This document shows positions 3,454-57,289 of a DNA stretch of 64,000 nucleotides, one piece after another. The notes under the pieces were generated by a model, which saw nothing but the letters and a program-made list of their open reading frames with translations, was not told the DNA's origin and did no database searches. Made by a program: the position numbers and the translations under genes. The stretch comes from a bacterium SCSIO 12643 (GTDB lineage: Bacteria > Bacteroidota > Bacteroidia > Flavobacteriales_G > Salibacteraceae). The stretch spans positions 2,852,001 through 2,916,000 of the forward strand of contig CP073750.1 in assembly GCA_024398135.1 (NCBI GenBank). The letters are read 5' to 3'. How positions within the stretch are numbered: position 1 is the first letter of the stretch; each line of letters opens with the position of its first letter.

Positions 3454-4203
3454 TTAATTCTTTTTGGCGATATAAAATCCATAGCTGTAATAGTCTTTGT
3501 ATTGAAGGTATAAGTCCAACTCGGCTTTATGATCATTAACAACTTTTTGGGCAAGTTCTTGTTGGTGATGACGTTTAAGAAATGATTCGAATCGATTTGA
3601 CAAAGGTGTGTAGTAGTTATCTATCCAGCTGTTTTGAGATAGATAAAAATACCCCACTATGGTAAAACCATTGTTTTCTAAAATGCTGATTTTATTAGAG
3701 GCCAAATCAATTTCAGGATATTCATTCATCCAGAAGCTTTCAATTTCTTTTGGACGTGACGGGGTGATCCATGTGATTTCGCTTACTGCTAAATATCCTC
3801 CCTTTTTTAAATAATCATACCACTTTTGGATTCCTTTTGTGAATCCCATATTATAGATGGCTCCTTCAGACCAAATGAGATCTAGTTCTTCGTTTTTGAA
3901 TGGTAAATCGTCCATAGATTTTTCCAGAGGTATAATGCGATCTATTAATCCAAGTTTTTGCGATTTTTCTTGAAGTTCATCTAAAAAATCCGGAAATAGG
4001 TCTACAGCGCTTATTTTACCATTCAGATGTTGTGCCAATGTGATTGTTTGTCCACCTGATCCGCAACCTATATCGGCAATTTTAAGATTTGTACGACCGG
4101 ACAAATTCGTAAGTTCAAGGGCACGGAGGGTTTCTTGAGGACTTCCAGGCCCCTGACGGTCTGAGTTTTTATGTAGGTCTATGATGAGCTCTAATTCAGT
4201 CAT
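3454..4203 (-). CDS. Class I SAM-dependent methyltransferase
   Basis: This 249-residue protein has the class I methyltransferase core. Motif I is IADIGCGSGGQT (about residues 41-52), an acidic end of strand 2 is at AVDLF, and motif II/III segments are DLIWSEGAIYNMG and LKKGGYLAVSEITW. These bind S-adenosylmethionine; the acceptor substrate is not evident. Its start overlaps the end of the upstream lipoprotein gene by 4 bp, so the two are translationally coupled in an operon with the dehydrogenase-like gene at 4703-5638. Confidence 0.9.
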   Translation of the reverse strand: MTELELIIDLHKNSDRQGPGSPQETLRALELTNLSGRTNLKIADIGCGSGGQTITLAQHLNGKISAVDLFPDFLDELQEKSQKLGLIDRIIPLEKSMDDLPFKNEELDLIWSEGAIYNMGFTKGIQKWYDYLKKGGYLAVSEITWITPSRPKEIESFWMNEYPEIDLASNKISILENNGFTIVGYFYLSQNSWIDNYYTPLSNRFESFLKRHHQQELAQKVVNDHKAELDLYLQYKDYYSYGFYIAKKN

Positions 4204-4706
4204 TGCGCCAGTTTTAATATTTCTCCTGTCGGTGATATTTGATATAAAGTGCTGTCTAATGAAGCGTTACTTTGACCCAATACGACATCCATTTGAATAA
4301 TCTTTCCGGGTTTAGGTTGGATCTCTTTGACGATTAAATAGTTATAGGCAATATATTGAACAGTTAAATCGTAGGAGGATTCCGGAACATAAAGTTTGAA
4401 ATGCCCCTGGATATCCGCAACTGCTCCAAATGTAGCCCCCGATTTTTTATCTACAAGATATACAGCTGCAAATTCTAATGTATCCATATGGTGCTGATTT
4501 TCATTGATAGTTTCCCCAAGAATTACACCAGAAATGATAGCTGCAGAGGTATCGGTTTGTTCAGTACTTTCCAGTGAGATGATCCTACTATCTATAGAAG
4601 GCCGATTAGCCAGATACATTACTCCACAGGTGGTAATTGGTTTTGGCGCACAGCCAGATAACCCGAATAAAGTCAGTAATACAGATGTGTAGATGAATCG
4701 CATCAT
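4200..4706 (-). CDS. Lipoprotein with carboxypeptidase-regulatory-like domain
   Basis: This 168-residue lipoprotein has a lipobox (LFGLSGC, about residues 13-19). A beta-sandwich segment around residues 60-145 resembles CarboxypepD_reg-like domains (AAVYLVDKKSGATFGAVADI, then GHFKLYVPESSYDLTVQYIAY). Such domains occur as surface or TonB-associated modules in Bacteroidota. It overlaps its neighbours by 4 bp on each side, so three unrelated-looking proteins are tightly coupled. Two adjacent ATG codons start the gene (4704-4706 and 4701-4703). Confidence 0.7.
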   Translation of the reverse strand: MMRFIYTSVLLTLFGLSGCAPKPITTCGVMYLANRPSIDSRIISLESTEQTDTSAAIISGVILGETINENQHHMDTLEFAAVYLVDKKSGATFGAVADIQGHFKLYVPESSYDLTVQYIAYNYLIVKEIQPKPGKIIQMDVVLGQSNASLDSTLYQISPTGEILKLAQ

Positions 4707-5638
4707 AGGTGCGTAGAAAGGTATTTCGTTGGAATATTTCTTTTGATGATTCGTGTGGATTGAATTAAGCTTTCCTTTTCTTTTAGATCAGGGAGGTAGT
4801 CCTTTAAAGGGTGCGCCCCAGATGAATTGATTTCGCTGTATAAACTCAGGTAAATTTCAGATTCTCCAATTTGAGTACTTAATTCGGCTGGAATAAAAGT
4901 GCTTACTGCCAGTTTTTTACCCATAGGAGATAACAATGATTCGAATATCTTAATGGCGCAGTATCCTACTCCGTAAATGGTGGCACCTTGTGTTTCTTTA
5001 ATCTTTTCAGCAGATGATTTGACCAAATCCATAAGTTGATTTGTAGCATGTTCATCCATCATAGTATGGAAGGGTAGTCCATTCACGTAGGAAAATTGTT
5101 GGCTCAGGAACGCAGAGTTACCATGTTCACCCAAAACAATGGTGTTTACGGAATCTAAATCAGGCCAGACCTTTTTTGTAAAGTAATCCATTCGTATAGA
5201 ATCCAGAAAAGTTCCGGTACCTATGACTTTGGTTTTAGGTAAGCCGGTGATTTTTTGCGTGATGAAAGTGATAATTTCGACCGGATTGGTGACCACAATA
5301 ATGAAGGGATTTTTGGTGGATTTAAAGTCCTTGAAAATGGCTTTGGTGATTTCAATACTTGCCTGACAGGTAGTGAGTCGGGATTCACCAACCGGTACGG
5401 ATGCTCCGGCACAATGAAATATAAAGTCGGATGCGTTTAAAAGTTGAGGATCATTAAAAACAATTTCATGGTTTGGATATAATTGCGCGCCTTGTCGAAG
5501 ATCTAATAAAGCCCCGGAAACATGGTCATCCGTATCCATAATGTGGATGGTAGATTTGAAGCTTTTATAGGGCAATAATAAAGCACCAATAGTCTTGCCT
5601 ACATTTCCGAAACCAAGTATTGTTATAATCAACTCCAA
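4703..5638 (-). CDS. Malate/lactate dehydrogenase family protein, altered specificity site
   Basis: This 311-residue protein is a full-length NAD-dependent 2-hydroxyacid dehydrogenase homologue. The nucleotide loop is G9-F-G-N-V-G14, with D35 at the end of strand 2, which fits NAD. The catalytic set is present: R87 in GESRL, D146 and R149 in FLDSIRM, and H172 in GEHGNS. The residue that is Gln in lactate and Arg in malate dehydrogenases is Val81 here, so the substrate is probably neither. The start is TTG at 5636-5638, with no in-frame ATG nearby. It leads a three-gene coupled cluster. Confidence 0.85.
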   Translation of the reverse strand: MELIITILGFGNVGKTIGALLLPYKSFKSTIHIMDTDDHVSGALLDLRQGAQLYPNHEIVFNDPQLLNASDFIFHCAGASVPVGESRLTTCQASIEITKAIFKDFKSTKNPFIIVVTNPVEIITFITQKITGLPKTKVIGTGTFLDSIRMDYFTKKVWPDLDSVNTIVLGEHGNSAFLSQQFSYVNGLPFHTMMDEHATNQLMDLVKSSAEKIKETQGATIYGVGYCAIKIFESLLSPMGKKLAVSTFIPAELSTQIGESEIYLSLYSEINSSGAHPLKDYLPDLKEKESLIQSTRIIKRNIPTKYLSTHL

Positions 5639-5752
5639 GATAATAACATGTGTTTTAGTGCAATTTGTGATGAGGTGCTAAAGGTACATCTTTATTTACG
5701 TTAAAAGACGATCATTCATATTGAGATCAGTGCTTTAGCTGGTTTTTTATTT

Positions 5753-6361
5753 TTATAAAATTTTCTCCCACGTTTTCATGGTTTCATTATTTAGATATGG
5801 TAACCACGATCTAAATAGAAATTTGGCATAATGTTCTACTGAATGTTCTTGTGGGTGATAATTTTTGACCATTAACCAGGATTGGATAGTAAATATAAAC
5901 TGCTCAGTCAGAAACTCGATTTGCGATGCACTGATATCCTGTCTGAATTTCCCTTCAGATTTATAGATATGGATCAGATCTAAAATTTCATTTTTTTTTG
6001 ATTGAAATAATTGAATCATACCATTTTTGATTTCCGGGATTCTTCGCCAGATGACTTCATTTTGTTGAAAAAATAATCGGTAATTATCCATGATTCTAAA
6101 ATTCTCAAGCATGGATTCATACATTTCAATGGTGTCAAATTCTGTTCCATTAAATCTTTCGGCAGATTTTATTTGATGTATAAAATTATGGAATAGGGTG
6201 GAGAGAATTTCATTTTTGTTGGGGTAGTGATAATGTAAGTTTCCCTGGCTTATCCCAAGCTCTTTGGCGATATGCCGGGTGGTTATATTTTCTACGCCAT
6301 ATTCATTAAACATAGCCAATGATTTCGCGATGATTTTTTCTTTTGTTGATAATTGGTTCAT
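5753..6361 (-). CDS. TetR/AcrR family transcriptional regulator
   Basis: I chose the ATG at 6359-6361 (202 residues) over an upstream GTG at 6383-6385. The N-terminus is a classic TetR DNA-binding domain (KEKIIAKSLAMFNEYGVENI, then HIAKELGISQGNLHYHYPNK). The rest is a helical ligand domain of unknown specificity. It is divergent from the amidohydrolase at 6410-7792. Two copies of a 12-bp palindrome sit between them and one overlaps this start codon, so autoregulation and control of the amidohydrolase are likely. Confidence 0.92.
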   Translation of the reverse strand: MNQLSTKEKIIAKSLAMFNEYGVENITTRHIAKELGISQGNLHYHYPNKNEILSTLFHNFIHQIKSAERFNGTEFDTIEMYESMLENFRIMDNYRLFFQQNEVIWRRIPEIKNGMIQLFQSKKNEILDLIHIYKSEGKFRQDISASQIEFLTEQFIFTIQSWLMVKNYHPQEHSVEHYAKFLFRSWLPYLNNETMKTWEKIL

Positions 6362-6367
6362 TTGAAC
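6356..6367. promoter_or_regulatory. Probable TetR operator, copy 1
   Basis: GTTCATTTGAAC is a perfect 5-2-5 inverted repeat. It covers the TetR start codon and lies in the spacer of the divergent amidohydrolase promoter (TTG at 6353-6355, TATATTTG at 6375-6382). A second copy with one mismatch lies at 6393-6404. Confidence 0.65.
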
Positions 6368-6374
6368 TAATCTG

Positions 6375-6382
6375 TATATTTG
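6375..6382 (+). promoter_or_regulatory. Bacteroidota-type promoter of the amidohydrolase gene
   Basis: TATATTTG fits the Bacteroidota -7 element TAnnTTTG. A TTG at 6353-6355 gives the -33 element with a 19-bp spacer, which is typical. The start site would be near 6389, about 20 bp before the ATG at 6410. Confidence 0.65.
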
Positions 6383-6392
6383 CACAAGTATA

Positions 6393-6404
6393 GCTCAAAT
6401 GAAC
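6393..6404. promoter_or_regulatory. Probable TetR operator, copy 2
   Basis: GCTCAAATGAAC matches the reverse complement of the 6356-6367 palindrome at 11 of 12 positions. It sits just downstream of the predicted transcription start of the amidohydrolase gene, where a bound repressor would block initiation. Confidence 0.6.
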
Positions 6405-6409
6405 TAAAT

Positions 6410-7792
6410 ATGAAAACGTATTATTTCCTGATTATGATGATATTTTTGGGTGCATGCTCAAAAAATGCGAATGATCCTCTTGTGGAGAAATTATCACATT
6501 CAGAATCTATTCTGATAAAAAAGGTCCATATTTTCAATGGTAGAGATCGTGAAATAATGAGTCCAAAAGACGTTTTAATTCAAGATGGAATAATAAAATC
6601 GATCTCAGATGAAATTGAGGAAACCCCAAATCAAATTGTTATAAATGGTGCCGGTCAAACCTTAATGCCTGGAATGGTCGATGCCCATGTCCATTTATCA
6701 GGTAGTGGAGCGGTGCCCTGGGAAAATCAAAAGGCAGATGTAATCTATAATCTACAAGCGTATTTATATGCAGGAGTAACTACGGTTTATGATTTGGGAG
6801 GTTTGGCTGGAGATATAAGCGAGTTTTCAGATCAAATTGAAACAGGTGAAATATTAGGCCCCCGTGTATTTAACACCCATATACCGATTACGGTGAAGAA
6901 TGCCCATCCGATTCCATTAACTGAGATTATGTTGCCATGGCCATTAAAAAGTATGGTGAATACGATATCTCCTACGATAGATCATGTTTCAGAAGCGCCA
7001 AAACTCATAGAAAAATACACCTCAAAAGAAATTGATTATGTGAAGATTATTTGTGATCAAATACCACCTGGATCACCTGAAATGAACTTTGAACAATTGC
7101 AGGCTTTGGTTTCAGCATCTCATAAGGCAGGTAAAAAGGTTTTTGTTCATATCGGAAGTCCGGAAAACGCGATTACTGCCATAAAAGCAGGAGCTGATGT
7201 TTTGGCGCATGGTGTTTGGAGAGGGAAGTTATCAGAAGATCAAGCCAGTTTTATTGCACGTTCCAATGTGCCTATTATTTATACGATATCAGGGTTTAAA
7301 AATGTAGCACACATTCATAATGGTGTATTTAAACCAAATGAACTAGATCAAAAACTAGTGCCGCAAGAAGTATTGGTACCGGTTACTCTGGAAAAAGGTA
7401 AAGATGTTCATCAGCAAAAGGTGATGAATAATTTTTTTAAAGATGTATCTGCGCATAGTGGTTATTGGGAACAAAATTTCACACTTTTATATCAGAAAGG
7501 AGCCAGGATTCTGGTTGGAACAGATAGTAATTTACCTGGTACATATGCGGGTTCAACTTATTATCAGGAACTGGATGAATTAAAGAATTTTGGAATGACA
7601 AATTTTGAAATATTAACCGGTGCTACTTATTTGAATGCACAATTGTTTTTGGAGCATCCGGATTTTGGATTTGTAGGTGTTGACATGCAAGCAGATTTAT
7701 TATTAATAGATGGAAATCCGCTAGAAGATTTACAATTGGTAAAGAAACCAAATTTGATCATTAAAAGAGGAGAAATTATCAAGCGTATATAG
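6410..7792 (+). CDS. Amidohydrolase-family lipoprotein
   Basis: The ATG at 6410 gives 460 residues and a lipobox (IFLGAC), so the enzyme is probably membrane-anchored outside the cytoplasm. An earlier TTG would lie inside the promoter. The amidohydrolase metal site is visible: DAHVHLSG after the first beta domain, a possible bridging lysine in DYVKII, then VFVHIG, VLAHGVW and GTDSN, and a C-terminal beta domain (GFVGVDMQADLLLIDGNPLE). This resembles imidazolonepropionase-like or prolidase-like amidohydrolases. The substrate is unknown; expression is probably controlled by the divergent TetR. Confidence 0.9.
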   Translation: MKTYYFLIMMIFLGACSKNANDPLVEKLSHSESILIKKVHIFNGRDREIMSPKDVLIQDGIIKSISDEIEETPNQIVINGAGQTLMPGMVDAHVHLSGSGAVPWENQKADVIYNLQAYLYAGVTTVYDLGGLAGDISEFSDQIETGEILGPRVFNTHIPITVKNAHPIPLTEIMLPWPLKSMVNTISPTIDHVSEAPKLIEKYTSKEIDYVKIICDQIPPGSPEMNFEQLQALVSASHKAGKKVFVHIGSPENAITAIKAGADVLAHGVWRGKLSEDQASFIARSNVPIIYTISGFKNVAHIHNGVFKPNELDQKLVPQEVLVPVTLEKGKDVHQQKVMNNFFKDVSAHSGYWEQNFTLLYQKGARILVGTDSNLPGTYAGSTYYQELDELKNFGMTNFEILTGATYLNAQLFLEHPDFGFVGVDMQADLLLIDGNPLEDLQLVKKPNLIIKRGEIIKRI

Positions 7793-52627: not shown

Positions 52628-52645
52628 ATACGTTGTATGTCGTAT
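52628..52645. promoter_or_regulatory. 18-bp palindrome, copy A (possible LuxR-type regulator site)
   Basis: ATACGTTGTATGTCGTAT has ATACG/CGTAT arms. Within it, TACGTTG-TA-TGTCGTA has the 7-2-7 geometry (TAC-N10-GTA) used by NarL-type regulators. It lies 59 bp before the start of the gene at 52705. A copy with 16 of 18 identical bases is at 54747-54764. Confidence 0.55.
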
Positions 52646-52704
52646 TGTGATGTGAAGTTTGACCCTTGAGTTTTGTAGGATTAAAAAAACATAAAATTTA
52701 GACT

Positions 52705-53640
52705 ATGAAACTTAAACTACTTGTAGCAGGTTGTATTTTGATGAGCAGCTCATTGGTAATGGGCCAGACGGTATCTTACGAAATTGAAAAAAATGACCCG
52801 AATGATTTTGATAAACTCCATGTTTACTTAGATCCGATTTATGCAGATATTATGGGGTATAAAGTAAATAATGATGGAATGTTTGCGATGTCTTTAGGTT
52901 TAGGCGCTTCCGGACATTATTTTATAGGAAGTAAGTTAAACTTATCCGCAAGATTTAATTACAAGTATTATTCGATTGGAGCAGAAGAAAATGGTCCGGG
53001 ATTTTTTACTGAAATTGGAGGCCAATATAATTTTACATCAGGTTCAAAAACAGGGAAGGCAAGAATTAAAGTTGGAAAAAACTCAACCATTAAGGACGGC
53101 TATGAGACGACTACAACAAAATCAATAGATGTGTCTGGAATTGAAACAAGCACCTTTTTAGCTGGCCGTGCGGGAATTACTATTGAAAAAACACATGCAA
53201 ATGGTTTTAAAGATGGAGTTTCCGAACAAAATAATTATGATGCCAATTTATTGAATAGTGGAGGCTATTTGGGAGTGTCTTTTCAATCCATAAGAAATGT
53301 ATTGGTAAATGTAGAAGGCTATGGGAAAAGAAGCGGTTCTTACATTAGAGATTTTTATGCGGATGTATTGTTTCAAAGCTACAAAGCTGAACAGGTTTTA
53401 GAAACGGGTAAAAGAATAGATTTCTCCGATTCAAAATACCAGAAAGAATCTCAGTTTGGTTTAGGTTTTAGAGTTGGATATACCAATCATGCCAATCCTA
53501 AAGGTCATGCAACGAATTACAAAATAAATGGAGGAAAGGGTCTTTTTGGCGGTACGTATCAAAAAATTGAATTGGGTTCATTACCTGGAGGTACGTTTTA
53601 TTTCCGATTCTCTTATGGCGTAAAAATTGTCAGCAAATAG
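52705..53640 (+). CDS. Secreted beta-barrel-like protein, unknown
   Basis: This 311-residue protein has a signal peptide (residues 1-20, cleavage after VMGQ) and alternates short strands throughout, ending in a strand with aromatic residues (GGTFYFRFSYGVKIVSK), as in outer-membrane barrels. No family is recognised. A 24-bp perfect palindromic terminator follows at 53661-53693. The upstream palindrome may bind the response regulator at 54816. Confidence 0.65.
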   Translation: MKLKLLVAGCILMSSSLVMGQTVSYEIEKNDPNDFDKLHVYLDPIYADIMGYKVNNDGMFAMSLGLGASGHYFIGSKLNLSARFNYKYYSIGAEENGPGFFTEIGGQYNFTSGSKTGKARIKVGKNSTIKDGYETTTTKSIDVSGIETSTFLAGRAGITIEKTHANGFKDGVSEQNNYDANLLNSGGYLGVSFQSIRNVLVNVEGYGKRSGSYIRDFYADVLFQSYKAEQVLETGKRIDFSDSKYQKESQFGLGFRVGYTNHANPKGHATNYKINGGKGLFGGTYQKIELGSLPGGTFYFRFSYGVKIVSK

Positions 53641-53660
53641 AAAATAATAGGCTTAAAAGT

Positions 53661-53693
53661 AAAAGCCAACGAGAAATTTCTCGTTGGCTTTTT
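53661..53693. terminator. Bidirectional terminator
   Basis: GCCAACGAGAAA and TTTCTCGTTGGC (53665-53688) form a perfect 12-bp stem, with an A-run on the left and a T-run on the right. It can terminate both the gene at 52705-53640 and the convergent gene at 53715-54701. Confidence 0.85.
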
Positions 53694-53714
53694 GTTTAGG
53701 GGAATGAAGATTTT

Positions 53715-54701
53715 TTATTTCTTACCGTTAGCTCTTTTGATAAAATTGGAGTAGCAAATTGAATAATAGCTTAGAATGGCTTCAAGGACTTTCTTCTCGT
53801 AAACAGCTTGCTCACAATCAATGGTGTTTGTAATAGATACCGTAGTATTTTCAACGATAAATATATTCGCATATTCAGGAGTGGTTACCCTTGATTTATT
53901 AGCGGTAGACTTAAACTTTGCGTCTGTAAAAACGCCTTCAATGGGAACATCATTTTTAAGTATTGTGATACTTGATGTAGCTGGTCCAGGAGCAATTTTA
54001 TCTTTACCTGATTGGTATGTTATTGTAGAAAACTTTGAAAGTTTTAAATCGGCACCACCTTTTACTGCTGCTCCTGCTAGATTTACTCCATCTTTTAACC
54101 ATATTGAGGGAATAACAATTTTTACATCAATAACTATTATATCATCTAGTTCTCTGGATATTTTATATCCGGTATCCACGAGTTTAACTCCCTTTTTTTC
54201 TTTTCCGGATTTTGAAATACCTTTTACATAATAACTAAATCCAGTTGGACTAACCATTGCATATCCTTCCAATTGTGCATTGTTGATTTTTGGGCCTGAT
54301 ACCATAGTATAATCCTTAAAATACTCAATACTTTGAATCTCATCGGCCTCCATAATCGTAAAACCATCTTTGGTCAAATCATTTTTAAAACGGGTGAAGA
54401 ACTGATCCGTAATATTTTGTAGGGCGGAGGTTTCTACTCCATTAATGCCCACAGCAAGTCTGGCAGTAGCATCACCTTTATACGCATCTCCACCTACTTC
54501 ACGTCCGCCTTTTTTGGTGTCGCTGGCTTCATCAATCATTTGATAGAGTACTCTAAAGGAATTGATGTAAACCTTTCGCGGTGCTTTTGCCATTCCCTTT
54601 GGGTTTAATGACGTTTCTTTGACATCCTTTTTAGGATCAATGGATTGGCTAAAAACCAATTGGCTAATGGCCATAGCTAAAATTGTAACTGAAATTCTCA
54701 T
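53715..54701 (-). CDS. Secreted protein, unknown
   Basis: I chose ATG at 54699-54701 (328 residues) over a TTG six codons upstream. The signal peptide is residues 1-18 (MRISVTILAMAISQLVFS). The mature region begins PKKDVKETSLNPKGMAKAPR and contains strand segments (VDTGYKISRELDDIIVIDVK) without a recognised motif. It is convergent with the 52705 gene and divergent from the two-component genes, whose intergenic region holds palindrome copy B. Confidence 0.65.
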   Translation of the reverse strand: MRISVTILAMAISQLVFSQSIDPKKDVKETSLNPKGMAKAPRKVYINSFRVLYQMIDEASDTKKGGREVGGDAYKGDATARLAVGINGVETSALQNITDQFFTRFKNDLTKDGFTIMEADEIQSIEYFKDYTMVSGPKINNAQLEGYAMVSPTGFSYYVKGISKSGKEKKGVKLVDTGYKISRELDDIIVIDVKIVIPSIWLKDGVNLAGAAVKGGADLKLSKFSTITYQSGKDKIAPGPATSSITILKNDVPIEGVFTDAKFKSTANKSRVTTPEYANIFIVENTTVSITNTIDCEQAVYEKKVLEAILSYYSICYSNFIKRANGKK

Positions 54702-54746
54702 AGTTTTTGTTTTTTTCAAAGCTGTTGGTTTCCAGAAGTATTTTCT

Positions 54747-54764
54747 ATACGCTGTTTGTCGTAT
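54747..54764. promoter_or_regulatory. 18-bp palindrome, copy B (possible LuxR-type regulator site)
   Basis: ATACGCTGTTTGTCGTAT has the same ATACG/CGTAT arms and 7-2-7 pattern as copy A at 52628-52645 (16 of 18 identical). It lies between the divergent genes at 53715-54701 and 54816-55460, so it could control both. Confidence 0.55.
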
Positions 54765-54815
54765 TTTTTATGTCGTAAAAGCATCTCAATTTTGACGGTA
54801 AATTAATTTAGTAGA

Positions 54816-55460
54816 ATGATTACAATTGGTGTTGTAGATGATATAGTTAAGTTAGGACTGGCCTTAAAGGAGAAAATTGAGGCAGGTTCTGAATTTGAGG
54901 TGAAATTTGTTGCTTTGGATGGATATGAAGCCATTTCATATTTAGAACATGAAATGGTAGATTGTATACTGATGGACATTAACATGCCTAATTTAGATGG
55001 AATAAAGGCCACACAACAGATTCTGAGTAAATGGCCTAAAGCTAAAGTGATTATGTGTACGGTTTTTTCAGATGAACAAAACTTGTTTGATGCGATTATG
55101 GCGGGTGCAATAGGATATTTGTTAAAAGATGAACCACCTCAAAAAATTCATAGATCGATATATGAGGCACTCGAAGGTGGCGCTCCAATGAGTCCGATAA
55201 TGGCTAGAAAATCGTTGAGTCTTATTCATTCCATACCTGCAACAACCAAAAAGACTGTGAGAGAGGAATATAAACTTACCGGTAGAGAGACAGAAGTATT
55301 AGAGTGGGTGAGTAAAGGTTATAGTTATGAACAGGTGGCGGGTAAACTATATGTGAGTTATGGGACTGTAAGAAAACATGTCGAAAATTGTTTTAAGAAG
55401 TTAAGAGTTCATAATAAATTAGAAGCGGTAAATAAGTTGAATAAAGAAGGATTTATTTAA
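54816..55460 (+). CDS. LuxR/NarL-type response regulator
   Basis: This 214-residue protein has a receiver domain with phosphoacceptor Asp54 (DCILMDINMPNLDG) and K in LLKDEPP, then a LuxR/GerE helix-turn-helix (about residues 150-210: LTGRETEVLEWVSKGYSYEQ, then VSYGTVRKHVENCFKKLRVH). It is cognate to the kinase encoded next: the stop and start overlap as TAATG. Two copies of an 18-bp 7-2-7 palindrome nearby are candidate binding sites. Confidence 0.95.
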   Translation: MITIGVVDDIVKLGLALKEKIEAGSEFEVKFVALDGYEAISYLEHEMVDCILMDINMPNLDGIKATQQILSKWPKAKVIMCTVFSDEQNLFDAIMAGAIGYLLKDEPPQKIHRSIYEALEGGAPMSPIMARKSLSLIHSIPATTKKTVREEYKLTGRETEVLEWVSKGYSYEQVAGKLYVSYGTVRKHVENCFKKLRVHNKLEAVNKLNKEGFI

Positions 55461-57289
55461 TGAGGTATTTTATCTTATTCCTGTTGCTACAAGTTAACTT
55501 GTATTGTTTTTCATCGGATACATTAGTTCTACAAGCCTGGCAAGAGCAGGCCAAAGCATACATAAATGTAGATATAGACAGTTCTCGATATTTTGGTCAG
55601 CAAATCTTAGAGAATTCTAAAACTCCTGAGTTAAAGAAATATCAGGCTTTTGCGTTGAATTGGATCGGTATTGCGTATATGCAAACCGGAATTCCGGATT
55701 CAGCGAATTATTATTTTAACCGAGCTATAGAATTTGCATCTAATAACGATGAGAATAGAATAGTTAGAATGGCCACATTCAACCTTAGCGTAAATGCGTT
55801 GAATCAGGGAAAGTTTGAGTTGGCGGCTGAAACGGGATTAAAAGCGCTTGATGTATTTAAGAAAGATGGAGATTCTATAGGTATTGGGAAAGCATTATAT
55901 CATATAGGTAGTTGTTATTTTAGTTTAAGTCAGTGGGGAGAATCCAAAAGGTATATGCAATTGGCGTTACCAGTTGCCAAAAAGCATGGGACTACATGGA
56001 GTCAGGCGAATATTTATGGTGCTTTGGGTTCTATAGCTTTTCAAGAAAAAGATACTCTTGAAGGGATATTAAATACGCAAAGGTCCATTAAGTTAAAAGA
56101 GGGAGCTGGAGGCGCATATTACTGTGGGCCACAGTATGTGAATATTTCAGATGTACATATGGCCCGACAAAATTGGGACAGTGCTTCATGGTATTTAGGT
56201 AAGGCGCAATGGGCTAGTCAAACTCTTGGTGATCAGCAATTGTTGGGAATTATTTTTACCCAAAAGGCTGCATATTTTAATCAGATTGATGAGATTGATT
56301 CTTCATTGTATTATGGCTATCAAGCAGTAAACGTATATGATATAACTAAGGATGATTACACCAGAGAATTGGCTTATTATAGATTATTCGAAGCATATCA
56401 TTCTCAAAATAATTTAGATAGTGCGATTTACTATCAAACACAGTATTACGATTTAAAAGATAGTATTCAAGGAGTAGATGTAAAAGAAAGGATTGCCAAT
56501 TTGGATGCCAATTATCAATTGGCAGAAAAGGATAAAGAGTTGCTTCAAAGCGAACTGGAAATCCAAAAAAAGAACGAAGAAAGAGGGCTGTTAATCTTTG
56601 TTTTAGTGATTCTCGTATTGGGGTTTCTTGGATTCTTTTTCCTATGGAATGTTCGAAAGAGAAAACAAATTATAGAGTCTGAATTAAGATTAGCGAATGA
56701 GAAAAACAGGATTGCTATGGATTTACATGATCATGTTGGTGCGGAATTAACACTTGCAAGTTCGACATTGTTTTCTCAAAGTTATGAAGATGGAATCAGT
56801 TCAAACAGAAAGAAAGAATTGCAGACCATAGGACATCAATTGCGCGATATCACAGAGTTATTACGTGAGACCGTATGGTCCATTCAGGATACGCATATAT
56901 CAATAGAAGATTTGTTTGCTAAATTGGATATATTTCAATCTAAATTGTTCTCGAATCAAGCAGTAAAATGGAGTTCTTCGTTGTGCGAAGAGTACAATGA
57001 ATTACCCTCAGAAATAGCGATTGAAGTGTATAGAATTTTTCAGGAAGGATTGCATAATGCGTTTAAATACGCTCAGGCAAGTGAGTTGAAGATTAAATGC
57101 TCCTCAACTAAAAAGGAAATGATCATTGAGCTTGAAGATAATGGTATTGGTTTTGACGTAAAGAATTTATCAAAATTTGGATTTGGGTTAAAAAACATGA
57201 AAAAAAGAGCTCAGAAAATTAAAGCCCAAATTAGTATTGATACAAAAGAGGATAAAGGAACTAAAATTAAATTGACTCTGGACAGATAA
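55460..57289 (+). CDS. TPR-containing sensor histidine kinase (HisKA_3)
   Basis: This 609-residue kinase has a signal peptide, a periplasmic region of tetratricopeptide repeats (about residues 30-345, e.g. FALNWIGIAYMQTGIPDSAN), a membrane helix near residues 375-395, and a coiled-coil leading to the HisKA_3 phosphoacceptor helix (NRIAMDLHDHVGAELT, near residue 423). The ATPase domain follows (FQEGLHNAFKYAQASELKIK, DNGIGFDV, GFGLKNMKKRAQ). The periplasmic TPR part likely senses an envelope signal. Coupled to the response regulator. Confidence 0.94.
   Translation: MRYFILFLLLQVNLYCFSSDTLVLQAWQEQAKAYINVDIDSSRYFGQQILENSKTPELKKYQAFALNWIGIAYMQTGIPDSANYYFNRAIEFASNNDENRIVRMATFNLSVNALNQGKFELAAETGLKALDVFKKDGDSIGIGKALYHIGSCYFSLSQWGESKRYMQLALPVAKKHGTTWSQANIYGALGSIAFQEKDTLEGILNTQRSIKLKEGAGGAYYCGPQYVNISDVHMARQNWDSASWYLGKAQWASQTLGDQQLLGIIFTQKAAYFNQIDEIDSSLYYGYQAVNVYDITKDDYTRELAYYRLFEAYHSQNNLDSAIYYQTQYYDLKDSIQGVDVKERIANLDANYQLAEKDKELLQSELEIQKKNEERGLLIFVLVILVLGFLGFFFLWNVRKRKQIIESELRLANEKNRIAMDLHDHVGAELTLASSTLFSQSYEDGISSNRKKELQTIGHQLRDITELLRETVWSIQDTHISIEDLFAKLDIFQSKLFSNQAVKWSSSLCEEYNELPSEIAIEVYRIFQEGLHNAFKYAQASELKIKCSSTKKEMIIELEDNGIGFDVKNLSKFGFGLKNMKKRAQKIKAQISIDTKEDKGTKIKLTLDR

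Follow-up and report, generated by a model that had tools for sequence, protein, structure and literature searches.

A NarL-like dyad at a fixed distance from putative −7 boxes: a candidate operator for a two-component system and two exported-protein genes in a Bacteroidota genome

We examined a 64,000-nucleotide stretch of the genome of bacterium SCSIO 12643 (hereafter the window; contig CP073750.1, positions 2,852,001 to 2,916,000 of the forward strand), which belongs to a 4.12-Mb genome in one contig (G000). We focus here on four of its genes, in the order F52 (+), F53 (−), response regulator (RR; +), and histidine kinase (+), where F52 and F53 are exported proteins of unnamed families, and on two 18-bp palindromic dyads, termed operator 1 and operator 2, that lie in front of them. 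The RR, a NarL/LuxR-type protein, very probably binds these dyads and activates its own operon together with the exported-protein genes, which would make the system a self-regulating two-component switch. The operator and the promoter layout around it are apparently undescribed, the sensor pair is of an ordinary kind, and the two exported families are unnamed.

Operator 1 (ATACGTTGTATGTCGTAT) occupies positions 52628–52645 of the window, 59 bp upstream of the ATG of the F52 gene at 52705. Operator 2 (ATACGCTGTTTGTCGTAT) occupies positions 54747–54764 and is common to the divergent F53 and RR genes, 45 bp before the former and 51 bp before the latter. Both match ATACG-N8-CGTAT with 0 mismatches, are identical to each other at 16 of 18 bases, and share TAC-N10-GTA geometry, exactly as the original prediction had described them. 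That prediction was also right to place them upstream of the two exported-protein genes; its further statement that they flank the regulator–kinase pair was mistaken, as both lie upstream of the pair, one before 52705 and the other between the divergent 53715 (F53) and RR genes. Pairing between the two arms does not extend to their three inner bases, and the strict palindrome therefore comprises 5+5 bases, with the central pair in addition at operator 1. Matches in the window with up to two mismatches number 18 against a shuffled mean of 17.1, which is no excess, and only the exact window matches are therefore informative.

The RR belongs to a subfamily found in 86 of 395 genomes of the class (profile of six RRs, E ≤ 1e-60). 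Sixty of these loci, taken with 6-kb flanks, together with seven collected earlier gave a set of 67 loci and 824,511 bp. Over this set, ATACG-Nk-CGTAT occurs 28 times at k = 8 (in 23 loci) and 0–2 times at every other k in the range 0–20; the mean in dinucleotide shuffles is 0.25, and the reversed pattern gives 1. Five of the 28 sites (the two of the window and those of L022, L139 and L044) had prompted the spacing test, and some of the 28 are distant from any start codon. Random occurrence, which the original prediction had named as grounds for abandoning the idea, does not describe this exact spacing at loci of the subfamily. The L044 RR (JACSSC010000047.1) clusters with those of family f30 in the class under study.

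A symmetrised dyad matrix learnt from the RR upstream regions (approximately ATAcGgCA-WW-TGcCgTAT; threshold >10 bits) finds a dyad before the RR in 38 of the 67 loci, from 14 families by group code, and the count is the same with leave-one-out scoring. Column-shuffled matrices find 0.35 of 67, and other open reading frames (ORFs) of the same loci carry a dyad in 32 of 508 cases, a control set that leaves out ORFs shorter than 100 aa and the RR, kinase, F52 and F53 genes themselves. Most of the dyads end 30–53 bp before the RR start, with three at 103–107 bp. Where the kinase gene precedes the RR gene, the dyad often lies in the short kinase–RR gap or at its edge, and the RR may therefore have its own promoter. 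Most clades of the RR tree include rows with a site; these labels require 15 changes, compared with 21.8 when shuffled (L196, with a broken RR frame, was left out of this and of the covariation analysis below). Near subfamily RRs of three loci we also noticed stand-alone ORFs of 67–74 aa (L184 and L185:6723–6947, +; L188:7214–7417, +), each adjoining a dyad and with the look, by eye, of a LuxR-type helix-turn-helix.

Homologues of F52 and F53 (E ≤ 1e-5) are present in 36 and 12 of the 395 genomes, respectively. Ten of the 12 genomes with F53 carry the RR subfamily (p = 7e-6), as do 7 of 8 genomes identified with the first F53 profile (A3), built from the window protein and its G028 homologue only. 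At least 9 of the 10 arm bases are matched within 250 bp upstream of 9 of the 24 F52 homologues examined (from 51 rows) and of 8 of 17 F53 homologues (from 18, a weak G042 match being dropped), compared with 24 of 502 other ORFs of RR loci by the same criterion. The palindrome is thus conserved before RRs and before homologues of both exported proteins, the kind of conservation on which the original prediction had made its case depend. All but one of the homologue dyads lie 45–69 bp upstream, the exception being that of G122, an RR-negative genome, at 81 bp. Among the closest F52 homologues (E < 1e-70), 7 of 9 rows reach 9/10 and the other two have 8/10, at 46 and 49 bp. The divergent F52–dyad–RR layout recurs in two genomes of another family (L179 and L181). 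A variant dyad, ATACCCACAATTGGGTAT, 48 bp before an F52 homologue on G392:C46 (L261), is nearer the E. coli NarL heptamer than the subfamily consensus.

Bacteroidota promoters carry a −7 box, TAnnTTTG, and a −33 element, with the −7 box at a set position relative to the start site. In the window, putative −7 boxes matching TAnnTTTG at 5 of 6 bases lie 22 nt after operator 1 in front of F52 (GAGTTTTG, 52668–52675, +) and 22 nt after operator 2 in each direction, in front of F53 (CAGCTTTG, 54717–54724, −) and in front of the RR–kinase operon (CAATTTTG, 54787–54794, +). We then assembled 71 promoters with a dyad 25–75 bp before an ORF (63 distinct dyads), using the dyad matrix, which contains no −7 information. 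TAnnTTTG, at 5 of 6 bases or better, begins 21–22 nt past the dyad in 59 of the 71 (24 perfect, 35 imperfect), compared with 0–3 boxes at each of the remaining 43 offsets. The conforming promoters include all three of the window, the pair at L022, and the divergent promoters of L179 and L181.

Class II activators bind near −41. Reckoned from the usual position of TAnnTTTG relative to the start site, the 21–22 nt distance places the dyad centre near −41, where it would cover the −33 region, and the predicted arrangement, with an operator near −41 at a fixed distance from the −7 box, is that of a class II promoter. A class II activator is most likely because the dyad stands near −41 in place of a −33 box. 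The symmetry of the dyad, with a −7 box on each side, would explain how one site serves two divergent genes. From these features we infer a circuit in which the kinase would read a periplasmic signal through its TPR domain and phosphorylate the RR, an RR dimer would bind the NarL-like dyad (subfamily consensus approximately ATAnGnCA-WW-TGnCnTAT), and the bound RR, 21–22 bp upstream of the −7 box, would work as a class II activator. Operator 2 would then fire F53 on one side and, as positive autoregulation, the RR–kinase operon on the other; F52 would be fired from operator 1, the two exported proteins being the putative outputs. The sole pointer to envelope sensing is the predicted exported TPR domain of the kinase.

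The RR is the obvious candidate ligand of the dyad, and activation appears the likelier outcome of its binding. Repressor sites usually wander in position, and the dyad-to-box distance here is fixed, at 21–22 nt in 59 of 71 promoters; the dyad stands where a −33 box would be; and the −7 box is imperfect in 35 of the 59 promoters that have it at this distance, as expected of activator-dependent promoters. These features make it unlikely that the RR represses at the dyads, or mixes repression with activation, so that F52 and F53 would be shut off by the signal, even though a dimer near −41 would overlap the polymerase footprint and even though, in the accessible text of one study, the frdA promoter, with its high-affinity 7-2-7 site, is repressed by NarL itself (PMC4549865).

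A strict pattern, ATANGNCANNTGNCNTAT, bears on whether the RR itself or some other conserved transcription factor binds the dyads, the RR genes then being merely targets. It has 64 sites in 30 RR-positive genomes, compared with 8 for the reversed control, and 5 sites in 29 RR-negative genomes, again compared with 8. With the 19 sites in fetched RR loci subtracted, the RR-positive genomes still hold 45 against 8 (Fisher test against the RR-negative genomes, 0.0015). This comparison leaves out G000, G001, G002 and G028; G053, G054, G064, G077, G078, G084, G114, G122 and G124 were scored as RR-negative by their absence from the profile hit list. Taking one strict site per genome with its flanks gave 30 sites: 15 of the 26 from RR-positive genomes have a −7 box at 21–22 nt (five of these 15 in RR loci), and all four from RR-negative genomes lie inside ORFs, none with a −7 box. 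Dyads do precede exported-protein genes far from the fetched RR loci, as a separate factor would predict. The site excess is nonetheless confined to genomes with the RR subfamily (64:8 against 5:8), dyads are much more frequent before the RR than before the other ORFs at those loci (38/67 against 32/508), and TAC-N10-GTA is the dimer geometry of the NarL family, so that we regard another factor as improbable, somewhat more so than repression.

Two further explanations have very little left to stand on. The dyads are palindromic and could in principle be RNA hairpins, terminators or mobile-element relics, but they lie upstream of the inferred −7 boxes, hence outside the inferred transcripts, hold fixed distances on both sides of divergent promoters, and show by eye no obvious longer flanking identity between the two window sites; the hairpin or terminator reading was rejected on dyad position, and we give this group of explanations almost no credence. 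A chance likeness between the window palindromes is just as implausible and was rejected by the spacing and shuffle controls, with the dyads upstream of RRs, the genome-wide excess and the fixed −7 distance also against it, even if degenerate matches occur at the level of shuffled sequence and home-genome sites with up to one mismatch are about as numerous as in the control.

The same genome contains a paralogous copy of the system. Exact ATACG-N8-CGTAT occurs in eight places in the 4.12 Mb, compared with two for the reversed pattern. The window system and its paralogue account for four of the eight, a different repeated sequence (ATACGTATAAACACGTAT) accounts for three, and one lies inside an ORF that is FtsX-like by eye. 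At the paralogous locus (L022), the RR, kinase and F52 paralogue are 59%, 33% and 25% identical to their window counterparts, respectively (F52 paralogue, E 9e-15), and an exact dyad at C1:1922460 sits between the divergent F52 paralogue and the second RR–kinase operon. Another exact dyad, at C1:3985934, lies upstream of an F53-like gene at a separate chromosomal locus (L023). For these two dyads, ATACGCAAGATTGCGTAT and ATACGCAGAGTTGCGTAT, the distance to the gene start downstream is 51 bp at the RR and at the unlinked F53-like gene and 54 bp at the F52 paralogue; the dyad-end-to-RR distance is thus 51 bp in the window system and in L022 alike. Homology of the window F53 to the L023 and L041 proteins was not significant by BLASTP (E 3.2 and 0.037, respectively). 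The L023 branch is joined to F53 via G022 (profile A3, E 4.5e-4; phmmer with the L023 protein, E 1.7e-53).

This genome has a third subfamily RR (L041; 46% identical). It follows an 880-aa kinase that is propeller-like by eye, and has a weaker upstream dyad, ATAGGTAAAATGCCCTAT. The gene after it is probably an F53 relative, membership of the L041 branch in the F53 family being only probable.

The home regulon looks small, in keeping with the word 'self-contained' in the original prediction: the exact sites that precede genes serve the two paralogous systems. A wider scan covered 68 of the 96 home-genome sites with up to one mismatch (66 listed and the two of the window), requiring a −7 box of at least 5/6 at 21–22 nt and an ATG-started ORF of 60 codons 20–85 nt downstream; among these 68, no further site had both, outside the two systems and a second palindrome family described below.

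Several observations weigh against the assignment of the dyads to the RR as an activator. A dyad above 10 bits is lacking before the RR in 29 of the 67 subfamily loci, and 12 of the 71 dyad promoters have no −7 box. Among the RR-positive strict sites, 11 of 26 have no −7 box at 21–22 nt and 8 of 26 lie inside ORFs, and because of these boxless or intra-ORF cases a good part of the 26 may be chance. In the home genome, sites with up to one mismatch are barely in excess (96 against 87 in the control), the inner arm of the window dyads (CTG/TTG vs ACA) departs from the subfamily consensus, and G000 has no match to the strict consensus ATANGNCANNTGNCNTAT. The recognition helices of the paralogous RRs match save for conservative changes (VSYGTVRKHVENC vs ISYGTVRKHVENC); these near-identical helices, together with the off-consensus inner arm, make cross-talk between the two systems possible, and either RR may serve either site. 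The co-occurrence of F53 and F52 with the RR is favoured by construction, because the F52 and the wider F53 profiles were built partly from proteins near RR loci. Neither F52 nor F53 has a match in two genomes of the same genus, G001 and G002 (which were not searched for the RR), and from this and the 29 loci without a dyad the module appears patchy. Finally, all 29 rows with G5 have E at RR residue 190, as do 2 of the 8 rows that lack G5, but this E190–G5 covariation is a single evolutionary contrast and adds no independent support; direct readout on its strength was rejected, as it amounts to one tree event only and receiver columns score nearly as high.

Other ORFs near RR loci extend the pattern beyond F52 and F53. 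Of these ORFs, 18 of the 20 that have a dyad between −25 and −75 show a signal-peptide-like N-terminus by a crude rule, compared with 192 of 445 without a dyad (Fisher, 3e-5). A domain scan of 16 of the 38 other dyad-bearing ORFs found the type IX secretion tail Por_Secre_tail at the end of 9, a proportion that has no background set for comparison. On balance we favour, with some reserve, a class-wide operator code in which ATAnGnCA-WW-TGnCnTAT placed 21–22 bp before TAnnTTTG serves as a shared switch for genes of exported proteins, several of them bearing a type IX tail, and is read by many TPR or propeller-like kinases, and in which, in the F52-linked clade, one symmetric operator can fire an exported protein and a regulator divergently. 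From the signature of dyad, 21–22 nt and −7 box, the regulons of the subfamily could be deduced by sequence inspection. Targets are predicted by it in many genomes, and many appear to be surface or secreted proteins without assigned function. The signature also links F52 and F53 with a single type of signalling system. At L138 (G360), a CHAT-domain protein with a signal-peptide-like start (3634–6540, +) has a dyad 58 bp upstream and is encoded near an F53 gene and a subfamily RR.

F52 (52705–53640, +; 311 aa) and F53 (53715–54701, −; 328 aa) have signal-peptide-like N-termini, and neither matches Pfam, NCBIfam or PDB sequences significantly; they are thus exported and unrecognised, as the original prediction held. 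The best Pfam/NCBIfam match in the F52 and F53 searches was of the first 36 residues of the L022 paralogue to T9SS_sortase_N (E 0.0075), below the curated cut-offs, and the best PDB sequence match had E 0.47. F53 likely starts at the ATG at 54701 rather than at the TTG at 54719. Structure predictions were unusable, with a mean predicted local distance difference test score (pLDDT) of 34.9 for F53 (2-row alignment) and 30.3 for F52 (single sequence); F52 is possibly an outer-membrane beta-barrel, a fold guessed by eye only.

The RR (54816–55460, +; 214 aa) consists of a receiver (Response_reg, 80.7 bits), in which the phosphorylation residues D8/D9, D54, T82 and K104 are all present, and a C-terminal GerE helix-turn-helix (54.4 bits; cut-off 23.5). 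The kinase (55460–57289, +; 609 aa) has a TPR part that matches TPR_12, one transmembrane segment near residues 372–400, and HisKA_3 (motif DLHDHVG at 421) and HATPase_c domains with their catalytic motifs kept. Its N-terminus is signal-peptide-like by eye, yet was not flagged by a crude hydrophobicity scan.

A second palindrome family, approximately ATACGTRTTTATACGKAT, occurs in G000 at C1 positions 81588, 83827, 295903, 491951, 1209278, 3984784 and 4066408 (L278, L279, L282, L001/L025, L002/L026, L007 and L008/L027). Several of the copies are followed by a −7-like box at 22 nt. Two copies stand upstream of ORFs for exported- or lipoprotein-like products, and in two cases another LuxR-type RR/kinase operon is close by. 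This family is possibly the operator of another NarL-type regulator.

In the open-licence literature searched, as far as its texts were accessible, we found no earlier description of this dyad operator, and the term TAnnTTTG was not found in the part of it scanned for that term. Bacteroides hybrid two-component systems (HTCSs) have Reg_prop/Y_Y_Y sensors. The pairing of the L041 RR with a propeller-like 880-aa kinase resembles them; unlike in HTCSs, a NarL/LuxR-type RR is made here as a protein apart from its kinase. Polysaccharide utilisation genes are under HTCS control, according to the accessible part of PMC11253607. The catalytic half of the window kinase matches NCBIfam LiaS, of the LiaS/LiaR envelope-stress system, but at 88 bits against a cut-off of 450, and the match leaves out the TPR part.

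Within the phylum, the closest system that has been characterised is, to our knowledge, FimS/FimR of Porphyromonas gingivalis, in which a TPR kinase (FimS) is paired with a LuxR-type RR (FimR). Both systems pair a Bacteroidota kinase with an RR for control, putative here, of surface or exported proteins. The window kinase likewise combines TPR with HisKA_3/HATPase_c and matches the FimS model weakly along both parts; it differs in reaching 50 bits, with an equivalog cut-off of 600, and by eye no fimbrial gene is recognised among the listed window ORFs. In the accessible text of PMC1974823, FimR binds the mfa1 promoter in gel shifts, FimS/FimR acts on fimbrial promoters, and the term palindrome is absent.

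The likeness to E. coli NarL lies in the best NCBIfam match of the RR (PRK10651 NarL, 109 bits) and in the TAC-N10-GTA ends of the subfamily dyad. NarX carries a nitrate sensor domain, whereas the kinase here has a TPR domain instead. The accessible text of PMC4549865 describes NarL sites as inverted heptamers 2 bp apart, with TACCCCTAAAGGGGTA as an engineered example. The arm interior here is G-n-CA, compared with CCCT for NarL, the putative targets are exported proteins, the dyad lies 21–22 bp from a TAnnTTTG box, and the 109-bit score of the RR is below the equivalog cut-off of 250. By its sequence, this RR is assigned as NarL-like by family and not as NarL.

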